A stretch of 56,051 nt of DNA. Origin: Lachnospiraceae bacterium. Its GTDB lineage: Bacteria; Bacillota; Clostridia; Lachnospirales; Lachnospiraceae. The DNA is taken from NCBI GenBank assembly GCA_017462755.1, contig JAFTQM010000009.1, positions 1 through 56,051 on the forward strand, in the 5' to 3' direction. Positions 19,031 through 25,288 of this stretch are shown in pieces. A model generated the notes under the pieces. It made no database searches, was not told the origin of the DNA, and saw only the letters and a program-made list of their open reading frames with translations. The position numbers and the translations under genes are program-made. How positions within the stretch are numbered: position 1 is the stretch's first letter; every line of letters starts with the position of its first letter.

Positions 19031-22000
19031 ATGGCAAAGAATTACACCTTAGGCATTGATATCGGCTCTACCACCGTAAAAATTGCAATTCTGGACGGAA
19101 ACCGGAAGATGCTGTTTTCGGATTATGAGCGTCATTATGCCAATATCCAGTCTACGCTCGCTACTTTGATTACCAAAGCAGTAACCGAATTAAAGCAGGA
19201 TCTTTCCGTTCATCCGGTTATCACCGGCTCCGGCGGTCTGTCCTTATCTAAAAATATCGGTGTTCCGTTCGTTCAGGAGGTTGTAGCCGTTGCTACCTCG
19301 TTGAAGGATTATGCTCCGCATACCGACGTAGCCATTGAGCTTGGCGGCGAGGATGCAAAGATTATTTACTTTACCGGTGGTATCGACCAGCGTATGAATG
19401 GTATCTGTGCCGGCGGTACCGGTTCCTTTATCGACCAGATGGCAACTCTGTTAAAGACGGACGCTTCCGGTTTGAATGAATATGCAAAATCCTATCAGGC
19501 GATTTATCCGATTGCGGCTCGCTGCGGCGTATTCGCCAAGTCCGATATCCAGCCATTGATTAACGAAGGTGCTACCAAGCCGGATCTGGCCGCTTCGATT
19601 TTTCAGGCCGTTGTAAATCAGACCATCAGCGGTCTTGCCTGTGGTAAGCCAATCCGTGGAAATGTTGCATTCCTTGGCGGTCCGCTTCACTTCCTTCCGG
19701 AATTGAAGAATGCATTCATTCGCACCTTAAATCTGTCCGGCAATCAGATTATTGCTCCGGAGCACTCCCATTTATTCGCTGCCATCGGTTCTGCGATGAA
19801 TGCCGACGAAAACGTCAGCGTTTCTTTAACCGAACTGGCAGAGCGTTTAAATCAGGGCGTTGCTATGGCAATGGAGGTCAATCGTATGGAGCCTCTGTTT
19901 GCCAGCGAAGACAAATATGAGGAGTTCAAATCCCGTCATGCAAAGCATACCGTGCGCAAGTGCGACTTATCCACCTACCGCGGCAAGTGCTTCCTCGGAA
20001 TTGATGCCGGCTCCACCACCACGAAAGCTGCTTTAGTTGCAGAGGACGGAGCATTGCTCTATTCCTTCTATTCAAATAACAACGGAAGTCCGCTAAAGAC
20101 CACCATCAAGGCAATCAAGGAGATTTATTCCCTGCTGCCGGAGGGTGTAGAAATCGTGCGTTCCTGCTCCACCGGTTATGGTGAAGCCTTGATTAAGGCT
20201 GCCCTTTTGTTGGACGAGGGTGAGGTAGAGACTGTAGCTCACTACTATGCTGCTGCATTCTTTGAGCCGGCGGTTGACTGTATCTTAGACATCGGCGGTC
20301 AGGACATGAAGTGCATCAAGATTAAAAACGGCACGGTCGATTCCGTACAGTTAAATGAGGCATGCTCCTCCGGTTGCGGTTCCTTTATCGAAACCTTTGC
20401 AAAGTCCTTAAACTACGAGGTCGCAGACTTCGCAAAAATTGCATTGTTTGCCCAGAATCCAATCGATCTCGGCTCCCGTTGTACCGTATTTATGAATTCC
20501 AAGGTAAAGCAGGCACAGAAGGAGGGCGCTACCGTTGCAGATATTTCTGCCGGTCTGGCATACTCCGTTATCAAGAACGCATTATATAAGGTTATTAAGA
20601 TTGCTGACCCGAAGGATCTCGGTACCAATATCGTAGTACAGGGTGGTACCTTCTACAACGATGCCGTTCTCAGAAGCTGCGAGGCGATTCTCGGTCGGGA
20701 AGCAGTTCGTCCGGATATCGCAGGTATCATGGGTGCATTCGGTGCTGCACTTATCGCCAGAGAGCATTACACCGGCGAGGCTACTACCATGCTTTCTATT
20801 GAGCAGATTAACGAACTTCGTTTCGAATCCACAATGGCGCGCTGCAAGGGCTGTACCAACAGCTGTCTCTTAACCATTAACAAATTTTCCGGCGGTCGTC
20901 AGTTCGTTTCCGGTAACCGCTGTGAGCGTGGTATCGGCAAGCAGAAGAACAAGGACAATCTGCCGAACCTGTTTGAGTACAAGCTGCACCGCTATTTCGA
21001 CTATGAGCCTTTGGCAGAAAACATTGCCACCCGTGGTACGGTCGGTATCCCTCGTGTACTGAATATGTACGAGAACTACCCGTTCTGGTATACCTTCTTT
21101 ACCAAGCTTGGCTACCGTGTAGTCGTTTCTCCGCTTTCCACAAGAAAGATTTACGAGATGGGTATCGAGTCGATTCCTAGTGAGTCTGAATGCTATCCTG
21201 CAAAGCTCGCCCACGGACATATCATGTGGCTGCTGGCTCAGGGTGTAAAATATATCTTCTATCCTTGTATTCCATACGAGCGTTTGGAAGTACCGGGTGC
21301 AGGAAATCACTACAACTGTCCGATTGTTACCTCCTATGGCGAAAATATCAAGAACAACGTAGAGGAGCTGCGCGACCCATCCATTACCTATCAGAATCCG
21401 TTCCTTTCCCTTGAGAGCGAGGAAATCGTAACCGAGCGTCTGGTACAATTTTTTAAAGAAGAAAACAAGATTCCGGAGGCTGAAATCCGTGCCGCCTCTG
21501 CTGCCGCATGGGCAGAGATGTCTGCTGCACGTTCCGATATCCAAAAGAAAGGCGAAGAAACCCTCGAATACCTTTCCAATACCGGCAGACGCGGTATTGT
21601 ATTAGCCGGCCGTCCATATCATATCGACCCGGAAATCAACCACGGTATTCCGGAAATGATTAATTCCTACGGTGCTGCCGTATTGACGGAGGATTCCATC
21701 AGCCATTTAGGCAAGGTAGACCGTCCGATGATTGTCATTGACCAGTGGATGTACCACTCCCGTCTGTATGCCGCTGCTTCCTTCGTCCGTACCAGAGACG
21801 ATTTGGAGCTGATTCAGTTAAACTCCTTCGGCTGCGGTCTCGATGCCGTAACGACCGATGGGGTTGCCGATATTTTAAATGCATCAAATAAGATTTATAC
21901 CGTATTAAAGATTGACGAGGTAAACAGCTTAGGTGCTGCCCGTATCCGTATCCGTTCCCTGCTCTCCGCAGTGAACGACCGTGCAAGAAAGGGTGTCAAA

Positions 22001-23257
22001 CCGCACGTTACCTCCTCGGCTCATCACCGCGTGGTTTTCACGAAGGAAATGAAGAAGGAATACACGATTCTTGCACCACAGATGTCGCCGATTCACTTCC
22101 AGTTCTTAGAACCTGCATTGCGCTCCGAGGGCCTCAAGGTAGTCGTATTACCGAACGATAACCGCCGCGCCGTTGACGTAGGTCTAAAGTATGTAAACAA
22201 CGATGCCTGCTATCCATCCCTGATGGTAGTCGGTCAGTTAATGGATGCCCTGCTCTCCGGCGAATACGATTTGAACCGTACCGCAGTCGCAATCACTCAG
22301 ACCGGTGGCGGCTGTCGTGCTACCAACTACATTGGTTTCATCCGTCGTGCCTTAAAGAAAGCCGGCATGGAACAGGTTCCGGTTATCTCCATCAGCAGTG
22401 CCGGATTGGAGAAAAATCCGGGTATGAAATATACCCCAAGTGTTATCAGCAAGGTATTGCAGTCGTTAATTTACGGTGATGTATTTATGCGTGTCCTTTA
22501 TGCAACCCGTCCATACGAGGTAACACCTGGTTCCGCAAATGCATTGCATGACAAATGGGCTGAAGCTTGTAAGAAATCCATCGTAAATGGCAAGTGGAAG
22601 GAATTTAAGAAAAACATCCGCGGTATCGTCCACGACTTTGACACTCTCCCACTCATCGAGGGACTGGTAAAGCCAAAGGTTGGTGTTGTAGGTGAGATTC
22701 TCGTTAAATTCTTACCTGCCGCAAACAACTATCTTGTAGACCTGCTCGAAGCCGAGGGTGCCGAGGCAGTCGTGCCGGATATGTTAGACTTCTTTATGTA
22801 CGGCTCTTACGATGCTACCTACAAGGCACAATATCTTGGTAAGAGCAAGATGGAAGCAAAGATTAACCGTATGGCAATCAGCTTCTTAGAGTACTGTCGT
22901 AAAGAGGCGCGTCTGGCACTCCGTGAAAGCAAGCGTTTCCATGAGATGCCAACCATTTACGAATTGGCTGATTACGCTGCTCCTATCGTTTCCATCGGTA
23001 ACCAGACCGGTGAAGGCTGGTTCTTAACCGGCGAGATGGTCGAGTTAATCAAGAGCGGTGCCCAGAATATCGTATGTACGCAGCCATTTGCCTGCCTGCC
23101 GAACCATATCGTAGGTAAGGGTGTTATCAAGGAGCTGCGCCGCCGCTATCCGGAATCCAACATTGTAGCCGTTGACTACGACCCGGGTGCCAGTGAGGTA
23201 AATCAGCTGAACCGTATCAAGCTGATGCTTTCGACCGCCAATAAGAACTTGAAGTAA
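19031..23257 (+). CDS. 2-hydroxyacyl-CoA dehydratase activator-like fusion protein (BcrAD/BadFG + DUF2229)
   Basis: The 1408-residue protein joins two ASKHA ATPase modules and a large C-terminal half. Module 1 starts [16 protein letters not shown] and carries C126 (ICAGGTGSF) and C165 (AARCGVF). Module 2 starts [14 protein letters not shown] (about 322) and carries C444 ([10 protein letters not shown]) and C483 (GSRCTVF). In HgdC-type activators such cysteines hold a 4Fe-4S cluster between two subunits, so this chain may build a pseudo-dimer. After residue 600 comes a cysteine cluster ([14 protein letters not shown]), then regions like DUF2229 and like the HgdB/HgdC dehydratase subunits. Relatives of about 1400 residues are common in gut Clostridia but their role is unproven; an ATP-driven radical electron transfer function is inference. 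GGGAG precedes the start. Confidence 0.85.
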
Positions 23258-23263
23258 GATAAG

Positions 23264-23469
23264 GCATATGCAAAGCTCATAAATAGCTTTGAAAAGCCCT
23301 TGCAAAATGAATCAAAACATTAACAGGCACGCTTGCGCTACCTCAGCCTCGTAACGGTACATAAGACGCTAAACTACAGCGTCTAAGTACCGACGGGCTT
23401 CGAGTACCTGTTTATGTTTTGTTCATTTGCCGGGCTTTAGCATAGATTTCTTAAAAGTTTCGCATATGC
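23264..23469. other. 206-nt nested imperfect hairpin element (structured RNA or MITE-like)
   Basis: The region after the activase stop codon folds as one long nested stem. Paired arms from outside in: GCATATGC (23264-23271 / 23462-23469), AAAGCCC/GGGCTTT (23293-23299 / 23432-23438), GCAAA..TGAA (23302-23311 / 23422-23430), CAAAACAT/ATGTTTTG (23313-23320 / 23414-23421), AACAGG/CCTGTT (23322-23327 / 23407-23412), CTC-AGCC (23342-23348 / 23396-23404), CGGTAC/GTACCG (23355-23360 / 23387-23392) and AGACGCT/AGCGTCT (23364-23370 / 23378-23384). A side hairpin AAAGCT...AGCTTT is at 23272-23290. No convincing ORF lies inside. It precedes the terminator of the gene, so it would be part of the 3' UTR. 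The class is not recognised. Confidence 0.6.
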
Positions 23470-23475
23470 TCTTTC

Positions 23476-23516
23476 AGAGTCGTATACTATAAAGCTTGTA
23501 GTATACGACTCTTTTT
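23476..23516 (+). terminator. Intrinsic terminator of the activase transcript
   Basis: A 14-bp stem (AGAGTCGTATACTA and its complement) with a 9-nt loop is followed by CTTTTT. It lies 7 bp beyond the nested hairpin element. Confidence 0.88.
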
Positions 23517-23623: not shown

Positions 23624-25288
23624 ATGAACAGACAAGATACTGAGAAGATTATAGCAGAATATCTAAAGCCTATTTTCGGTTTTTCCCTGAAGCGCTGCAA
23701 AAGTATTCAGGATGCCGAGGATTTGTCGCAGGAAATCGTGCTAAAGGCATTCCGCACACTCCTGCTTAAGGACGATATTACGGATGTGCATAAATTCATT
23801 TGGACCATTGCGCACAATGCACTGAGTAATTATTATCGTGATACCGCGAAGGGTATTATCGGCATATCGATAGACGAAGTAGCCGAATCGCTTGCGGACC
23901 CAAATTCTGAAATCAACACGGATGACACCGGCGAATCCATTCGACAGCTGCAACAGGAAATTGCTTATCTGTCCAAGCTGCAGCGAAAAATTGTCATTGC
24001 ATACTATTTCGAAAATCGCAAGCAGGCAGATATTTCCTCCGAGCTTAGTATTCCTCTCGGCACAGTCAAATGGCATTTATTCGAAGCCAAAAAAGAATTG
24101 AAACGAGGTATGAATATTATGAGAAAAACAAGTGAATTAAAATTTCATCCAATTAAGTTCCACTCTTACGGAATCAACGGTTCTGCCGGTACCAAAACAC
24201 CGGATACCTTTTTCCGTTCGCCGTTGCCCCAGAACATTTGCTACTGCATCCGCAATACCGCAAAGACAATCAATGAAATTGCAGACGACTTAGGAGTTTC
24301 CCCGGTGTATATCGAGAGCGAAGTTGAATTTCTCGAAGAATACGGCTTTTTGCAGGCTCAAAAGGATAAATACATCGCCAACTTTATCATCGGCGAACCG
24401 ACCGCAGAACTACTTACTCTCCAGAACGATATGTATCGACAGGCTGCCGAGCTGTTTGCCAACGATTTGTATGATGAGCTTACCGGCAGCGGAATCCTCG
24501 ATGACCCGGACATCCTTTGCGGACAGACAGATGTTTCGGCTCCTCTGTCCGATACTACCCAAGCCGACCATAATTTTATTTTGTGGTCACTGATTCCTTA
24601 TATTGCAGCTTGGTCCGGTGAACACCTGCGAGATGAACGCATTTCCTTTGAAGAGGTCGCTACCATCCGCCCCGACGGCGGACATAATATTGTTAACGCT
24701 GCCGTAATTCCTGACCATATGACTTTACCGGAGGATTATGTTTACATGAAAAATTGGAGCGGTCCTATGTGGAATGGAAACGGCAGACATATCCTGTGGC
24801 AGATTGATACCGAATGGTCCGACCGCGCCACGCTGGCAAACAGAAATGTTATGAAGGAGCATGAGCAGGTAATGTCACTCTACCATGCCGAACCAAACGG
24901 CGGAATCTCAACGTTAGAATATGCATGGCTGGCAGAGCGCGGATACATCAAAACAACCGGTGACCCTAACGGGTCCTTCCAGACCGCATGGCAAATCGTA
25001 ATTCTCAAGAATAACGATATCAAAAACCGCCTACTCTCCATCGGTAATCGCATCAAAGAAAAATACCACAAGGAATTCGACGAGCTAAAAGCTCCTTATG
25101 TCGAGGCCGTTCTCAAAACAATTCCAAAGCATCTGCAGCGGGTAAAGGCATACGAGCTTCAGTCCGTCTTCCATTCCGATGGCTGGTTTTTATGCCACTG
25201 TATAACCACTCTGTTAAAGAATGGCAAACTGCAGCCACCTGCAGAGCATCAGAGAAAGGCATTGACTACAATGATTTTCCCTAGCTAA
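23624..25288 (+). CDS. ECF-type sigma-70 factor with about 385-residue C-terminal extension
   Basis: The first 170 of 554 residues are a sigma-70 factor. Region 2 (about 10-80) has QDAEDLSQEIVLKAFR and WTIAHNALSNYYRD. Region 4 (about 115-165) has LQRKIVIAYYFENRKQADISSELSIPLGTVKWHLFEAKKELK, written here in part only as the family helix-turn-helix. The remaining part is not recognised: residues about 215-250 look like a winged-helix segment (TINEIADDLGVSPVYIESEV), and the rest is soluble, tryptophan-rich and mixed alpha/beta. Typical ECF factors stop at about 180 residues. No anti-sigma gene is adjacent, so the extension may itself be the control or sensor domain (inference). Strong GAGGTGAG Shine-Dalgarno; ends at a 25-bp terminator stem. 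Confidence 0.82.
   Translation: MNRQDTEKIIAEYLKPIFGFSLKRCKSIQDAEDLSQEIVLKAFRTLLLKDDITDVHKFIWTIAHNALSNYYRDTAKGIIGISIDEVAESLADPNSEINTDDTGESIRQLQQEIAYLSKLQRKIVIAYYFENRKQADISSELSIPLGTVKWHLFEAKKELKRGMNIMRKTSELKFHPIKFHSYGINGSAGTKTPDTFFRSPLPQNICYCIRNTAKTINEIADDLGVSPVYIESEVEFLEEYGFLQAQKDKYIANFIIGEPTAELLTLQNDMYRQAAELFANDLYDELTGSGILDDPDILCGQTDVSAPLSDTTQADHNFILWSLIPYIAAWSGEHLRDERISFEEVATIRPDGGHNIVNAAVIPDHMTLPEDYVYMKNWSGPMWNGNGRHILWQIDTEWSDRATLANRNVMKEHEQVMSLYHAEPNGGISTLEYAWLAERGYIKTTGDPNGSFQTAWQIVILKNNDIKNRLLSIGNRIKEKYHKEFDELKAPYVEAVLKTIPKHLQRVKAYELQSVFHSDGWFLCHCITTLLKNGKLQPPAEHQRKALTTMIFPS

Follow-up and report, generated by a model that had tools for sequence, protein, structure and literature searches.

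Bacterial MITEs such as ERIC/RU-1, Correia/NEMIS, RUP, RPE, and QMITE2 are described, in the passages of two papers drawn on here (PMC2229807, PMC10969869), as short and mostly non-coding elements with terminal repeats and often with TA ends; ERIC/MITE elements are mainly intergenic, are present in tens of copies, and have transcripts predicted to form long hairpins. For the RNA known as TwoAYGGAY, the relevant passage of a 2014 paper (PMC4333381) proposes binding to CsrA, and the table of a 2010 paper gives it as a probable RNA that is not cis-regulatory, while its Rfam entry (RF01731) lists it as cis-regulatory. We found no mention of mobility in the literature passages on TwoAYGGAY.

The element described here has in common with ERIC/MITEs, as those passages portray them, its short length, terminal repeats, frequent TA ends, intergenic position, multiple copies, and long hairpin fold. 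It differs in having an RNA core that covaries across a family and bears a GNRA loop, terminal repeats that differ among genera, and tail-to-tail pairing, none of which appears in the ERIC/MITE passages; the likeness to the 127-bp ERIC is an analogy only. With TwoAYGGAY, the element shares the character of a structured RNA of gut Clostridiales that is multi-copy and arranged tail-to-tail. However, it does not match the TwoAYGGAY model: in the Rfam scan it scores below the RF01731 gathering cut-off, and no TwoAYGGAY match lies at the element. Clostridiales-1 (RF01699), which the sequence-only reading had singled out for comparison, comes from the same bacterial group, but no RF01699 match was found in the window, nor in the search around the element when the threshold was relaxed to E ≤ 10. 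Clostridiales-1 RNA was seen near two element copies (L206:1240-1406 and L210:2326-2487). Overall, we consider it likely that the hairpin in the window is a copy of a small, non-autonomous, MITE/ERIC-like Lachnospiraceae element carrying a conserved RNA module.

The window, i.e., the whole 56,051-nucleotide stretch of Lachnospiraceae DNA that was analyzed, folds at 23264-23469 into a single nested hairpin, running inward from GCATATGC/GCATATGC ends to an AGACGCT/AGCGTCT tip. This is the 206-nt structure that the sequence-only reading had described, and folding bears it out on both strands. On the + strand, 23264-23469 has a minimum free energy of -80.3 kcal/mol, whereas 200 dinucleotide shuffles give -44.7 ± 4.6; z is -7.68, and no shuffle equals the real fold. 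The - strand of 23258-23473 folds more strongly still (-94.0, z -9.02), a value that no shuffle reaches. The placement given by that reading is also correct, as the element lies directly 3' of the stop codon of the activase-like gene (23255-23257) and before a separate terminator-like hairpin (Table 1). The palindromes at its ends were taken as fitting a MITE, and they do correspond to terminal inverted repeats, although GCATATGC itself is a diverged version of the family repeat. Since the ends have diverged, the edges of the window copy are given to within a few bases. The 554-aa protein encoded downstream has sigma-70 regions 2 and 4 within its first 160 residues, and its long C-terminal part has no Pfam match at E ≤ 0.001.

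Table 1. Features of the putative mobile element copy and its surroundings in the window.
Feature	Position	Strand	Basis
Whole copy of the putative mobile element, terminal inverted repeat to terminal inverted repeat, ~210 bp	23262..23471	.	blastn copies in own genome; folds; 200-249 bp span of 41/43 terminal-repeat pairs elsewhere
Left terminal inverted repeat (AGGCATATGCAAAGCT), a diverged form of the family repeat AGGYRATTGCGAAACT	23262..23277	.	comparison with ends of other copies; pairs with right end in fold
Right terminal inverted repeat, diverged: AGTTTCGCATATGCTC	23456..23471	.	sequence; ends of other copies; fold
Conserved RNA core, model R1 positions 1-92	23322..23413	-	cmsearch 87.7 bits, E 6.5e-22 (window copy among the sequences behind R1); covariation
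Apex: P4 (CGGUAC/GUACCG) and P5, variable stem with loop	23355..23392	-	P5 pairing in 68-69/69 rows
P6: GC-GNRA-GC hairpin, loop GCAA in window copy	23330..23339	-	alignment; GNRA in 181/193 in family
Separate terminator-like hairpin with T run, outside element	23476..23512	+	hairpin and T run
CoA-enzyme activase-like gene (BcrAD_BadFG, DUF2229), neighbor only	19031..23257	+	ORF and domain match
Sigma-70-like factor with long C-terminal part, neighbor only	23624..25288	+	ORF and domain match

Using a 221-base blastn query, we found the element at 35 places in its own genome at E ≤ 0.01, including the window and three fragments of 36-54 bp, and at 41 places at E ≤ 10. The covariance model of the core (R1) gave 33 matches in this genome, with 35 candidates scored. 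The copies are dispersed and intergenic and most lack protein coding, as expected of a MITE. Among 117 copies elsewhere, 18 fall inside a mechanical ORF; the six longest of these were inspected, and all six are open frames that extend beyond the element, with the tip at residues 12-37. Thirty own-genome copies were folded, the strongest giving -151.5 kcal/mol for stretches of ~300 nt and the weakest being L020 (-70.9) and L030 (-53.0), the latter interrupted by a contig end. Many short copies are bounded by TAGRYRATTGCGAAACT-like inverted repeats, and a long class bears extra arms; the arms are long, palindromic, and variable between copies. Arms were considered as inverted target duplications or as guide sequences, and the guide idea was dropped because several copies in one genome have common arms. 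In L165 (Roseburia porci), inverted arms pair to the ends of a ~230-nt folded stretch, as if the palindrome had grown outward. Head-to-tail arrays of R1 matches occur in G115, with four copies at 164-bp spacing (C59:125138-125721) and three at 187-bp spacing (C21:12436-12901).

Across the loci, the TAGGYRATTGCGAAACT repeat forms 43 pairs whose members are no more than 6 kb apart, all spanning 200-350 bp and 41 of them 200-249 bp. A core is enclosed by 41 of the 43 pairs, but the loci had been selected for the core, and the telling point is the absence of any longer pair. Of the remaining two, one overlaps an R1 match (L134) and the other is outside the R1 scan (L072). In G042, the 20 fetched copies (of 80 matches) form groups whose members are nearly identical inside, differ in their right-hand flanks, and share the ends TAAACTGYAG...CTRCAGTTTA; their left flanks are often common to several copies because the copy is part of a doublet. 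The terminal inverted repeats that characterize MITEs are seen both in the 43 pairs and at the G042 ends. TA, a candidate target-site duplication, is found at both ends in many copies, where it may be part of the repeat itself, and is not visible to the right of the window copy. Some other genera have different terminal repeats around a conserved core. Terminal-repeat searches of the loci examined and of G000 and G042 found no transposase-bearing or longer autonomous version; in G042, where one mismatch was allowed, none was among the matches listed, and IS copies may drop out of draft assemblies. The analysis yielded no clean empty site.

There is no fixed orientation of the element to genes. 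In its own genome, the four possible neighbor arrangements are represented by 10, 9, 6, and 3 copies, with two further copies lacking a neighbor on one side. For the 117 copies elsewhere, the gene on the 3' side of the RNA points toward the element in 46 cases and away from it in 45, with no neighbor in 8 and the 18 intra-ORF copies making up the rest. On the 5' side of the RNA, genes point away from the element in 20 cases and toward it in 9 in the own genome, and are evenly divided elsewhere (42:42). The MITE half of our interpretation, which the sequence-only reading had put forward from the terminal palindromes, draws its support from the terminal repeats, the number of copies, and their orientations.

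That reading had also placed the hairpin in the 3' UTR of the activase-like gene, where it could be a 3'-UTR-derived sRNA or an mRNA-stability element. Its position between stop codon and terminator, where it would fold in the mRNA, agrees with this. However, the conserved RNA strand is antisense to the activase-like gene, so that the hairpin is no sense-strand 3'-UTR structure of that gene, the orientation to genes is not fixed, and the element is missing from the 3' ends of the orthologous genes in congeners. By blastn at E ≤ 0.01, five congeners have no copies of the element; the orthologous gene was found in four of the five, in none of them followed by the element, and cmsearch of these four loci gave no matches at E ≤ 1. 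With only 71-76% identity and with different sequence downstream, the four genes do not offer clean empty sites. A 3'-UTR role in this gene is therefore extremely improbable, and the activase-like gene is an incidental neighbor of the element.

The conserved part of the element is a 92-nt core, which is the sole cmsearch match to R1 in the window at E ≤ 1; the window copy is among the 69 sequences used to build R1. A search of GTDB genomes for the tip pattern gave at least 117 stretches, and 79 of 135 copies were picked for <80% identity. Eight odd-looking copies were dropped before alignment A1 and two more before A2 (n = 69). In A2 the core shows strong covariation, beyond shuffled and slid controls, as expected of a structured-RNA family: 86.5% of cells in the whole structure are paired, compared with 70.7% in shuffles, although removal of the ten copies may raise pairing somewhat, and the covariation score is 0.445, compared with 0.159 in shuffles and 0.075-0.113 in slid controls. 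The separation is less sharp for pairs changed on both sides (20 vs. 17.3, reached in 7 of 500 shuffles) and for further pair types (67 vs. 60.5, reached in 2 of 500). In P5, each of the five variable positions shows four or five pair types and is paired in 68-69 of the 69 rows. Alignment of P2 and P3 is imperfect, with 74.5% of cells paired in P2 and 82.3% in P3 with P4. Because the letters of P4 were preset by the search pattern for the GTDB copies, P4 is little informative there, while P2, P3, P5, and P6 were free; P4 pair changes do occur among matches that only the model recovered, such as GGUGU/GCACC in L183. Among nearest paralogs in the own genome, stem changes are compensatory in 12 cases, wobble-keeping in 8, and breaking in 3; among nearest relatives outside it, in the same alignment, there are 22 compensatory double changes, 2 wobble-keeping changes, and 19 one-sided changes that break a pair, and a further 6 changes on both sides leave the pair broken. 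Library scans with Rfam 15 matched no family at the element, and the scans around it at E ≤ 10 gave just chance-like miRNA, snoRNA, and scaRNA matches under their cut-offs.

Read on the - strand of the window, the conserved CGCTYTCGCT becomes a GC-GNRA-GC hairpin. Our census of this loop took R1 matches from 181 of 202 loci (21 were omitted as truncated, chimeric-looking, or redundant, or as the five congener loci). It contains 197 distinct matches with 193 four-base loops, of which 181 are GNRA, none GNYA, and 12 other, mostly AAAA or AAGA; an earlier and cruder parse gave GNRA in 113 of 126 parsed loops from 134 copies. The GNRA rule is an RNA rule, and its excess on the - strand favors RNA of that strand. 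Wobble pairs lean weakly the same way, both in the core (G.U 32 vs. A.C 18 on the proposed RNA strand, p 0.065) and in the arms (154 vs. 114, from 26:15 plus 128:99; p 0.017). Because this excess is slight, maintenance at the DNA level may account for the pairing of the long arms.

Palindromic ends by themselves can yield a hairpin, and an ordinary MITE whose fold is a mere by-product of its ends, with no function as RNA, would be in keeping with the terminal repeats, the many intergenic copies, the long palindromic arms that vary between copies, and the weak strand asymmetry in those arms. By contrast, a passive palindrome would not favor GNRA on one strand, and P5 holds its pairing in diverse copies despite base changes. 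These two observations suggest that the core is selected as RNA and make the ordinary MITE unlikely. The covariation and GNRA data thus support the RNA half of our interpretation, and the structured RNA proposed by the sequence-only reading survives as the core, although in scattered rather than orthologous copies. That reading had set structured RNA against MITE; the evidence gives both at once, and the exclusivity is what fails. It had counted against itself an absence of covariation and of copies in related genomes, or a match to a known insertion sequence end. Covariation and such copies are both present.

In a sample of 120 Lachnospiraceae genomes that takes one from each genus and includes the own genome, R1 has matches in 54, and in a phylum-wide draw it matches 2 of 199, namely the own genome and another member of the Lachnospiraceae. 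Among 397 family genomes searched by blastn with the window copy, 43 gave a match. R1 matches number 45, 18, 40, 3, 22, and 25 in six genomes to which the loci led, and 80, 16, 5, and 16 in G042, G395, G195, and GAM79; as the number of candidates scored in each genome was capped, the larger of these counts are possibly lower bounds. A plasmid collection gave no element matches at E ≤ 0.01 and a phage collection two weak partial ones; four viral contigs contain the tip pattern, two of them with an R1 match. The element was also seen in MAGs labeled Gastranaerophilales, Muribaculum, Muribaculaceae, or Bacteroides (L033, L047, L050, L072, L099, L130), where mis-binned contigs are likely. In L100 and L112, the two halves of the sequence read as coming from different subfamilies, as recombinants or assembly chimeras.

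Neighboring copies are arranged tail-to-tail, i.e., a - strand copy on the left and a + strand copy on the right. Among matches <600 bp apart, start to start, 47 of 50 pairs are tail-to-tail, three run in the same direction, and none is head-to-head. These pairs were drawn from eight genomes, two of which have no such pair, with TwoAYGGAY matches included for G042 only; two further genomes, G402 and G404, show no pair that close among the matches listed. The pairs are not independent, as one unit may have given rise to several doublets in a genome. BIME/REP doublets are inverted pairs of short palindromic repeats, and the strong tail-to-tail pairing resembles that of BIMEs, which would fit a single-stranded DNA hairpin element of the REP/BIME kind, moved by a Y1 (RAYT-type) transposase. 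However, each unit here is ~200-300 bp long and has two inverted ends of its own, the strands are mixed along the single GAM79 contig (read without regard to its origin), and GNRA is an RNA signature, so that we regard such an element as very improbable.

Doublets also join the element to TwoAYGGAY. Of the 16 element matches in GAM79 (G604), 12 had their loci scanned, and in eight of these loci (L210, L214, L217, L219, L221, L223, L225, L230) TwoAYGGAY lies on the opposite strand ~90 nt away; at least in L214, L225, and L230 both modules are within one common inverted repeat. In G042, it occurs in 9 of 15 chosen regions (L253-L257, L259, L263, L265, L266), and all 12 close element-TwoAYGGAY neighbors are tail-to-tail, as are all nine TwoAYGGAY self-pairs under 700 bp in four genomes. 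TwoAYGGAY is present in 16 of 120 family genomes, 15 of which also bear the element, compared with 54 of 120 overall (Fisher p 1.9e-5). It is multi-copy, with at least 20 or 21 matches in each of four genomes (21 being the number scored), and it has no match in the own genome, for which completeness stands at 82%. TwoAYGGAY is thus probably a multi-copy mobile-element module that pairs tail-to-tail with itself and with the element.

In the non-autonomous element that we favor, an enzyme supplied in trans would act on the terminal repeats and insert units, whether single or paired, at new places between genes. The core would work as a transcribed RNA, kept because it helps the element to persist or spread, perhaps because it binds an RNase or an RNA-binding protein of the host or shields transcripts of the element, and selection would act on element lineages rather than on one host gene. 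Several observations speak against this explanation: no mobilizing gene was found in the loci, G000, and G042, no clean empty site was obtained, the wobble asymmetry is slight, breaking changes outside the own genome (19) approach the compensatory doubles (22), and genes on the 5' side lean 20:9 in the own genome.

It is also conceivable that the element moves through its RNA, like a bacterial SINE, the transcribed core being recognized by a reverse transcriptase that would copy it into further sites. A strand-specific RNA signature, covariation kept through bursts of copying, and terminal sequences that differ among genera around a conserved core would all agree with this, but paired inverted repeats with TA ends better suit a DNA transposase, and we regard it as quite unlikely. 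A broader proposal, which we offer tentatively and regard as unlikely, is that a single Lachnospiraceae mobile system, moving as tail-to-tail doublets, uses the element and TwoAYGGAY as interchangeable RNA modules, with the folded RNA itself taking part in mobility, by reverse transcription or otherwise (SINE-like or RNA-assisted). If true, this would be an RNA-assisted element in which the terminal sequence is disposable and the RNA shape is not.

The element itself was not recognized in the literature searched on sequence words, Lachnospiraceae MITEs, and Clostridia sRNAs, and our literature search recognized no family-wide covarying RNA core in a MITE, no tail-to-tail pairing of this kind, and no link to TwoAYGGAY. 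MITEs with folded transcripts are already known. Of the Lachnospiraceae genomes sampled, nearly half carry an RNA that matched no Rfam 15 family in our scans, and a single genome can hold as many as 80 matches. As it would be carried by a mobile element, the question of why a transposon keeps an RNA fold becomes testable. TwoAYGGAY, an Rfam RNA listed as cis-regulatory, is recast as a probable mobile-element module, and repeats of this kind can have an effect on how gut-bacterial genomes are annotated, how MAGs are assembled, and how terminators and sRNAs are called.
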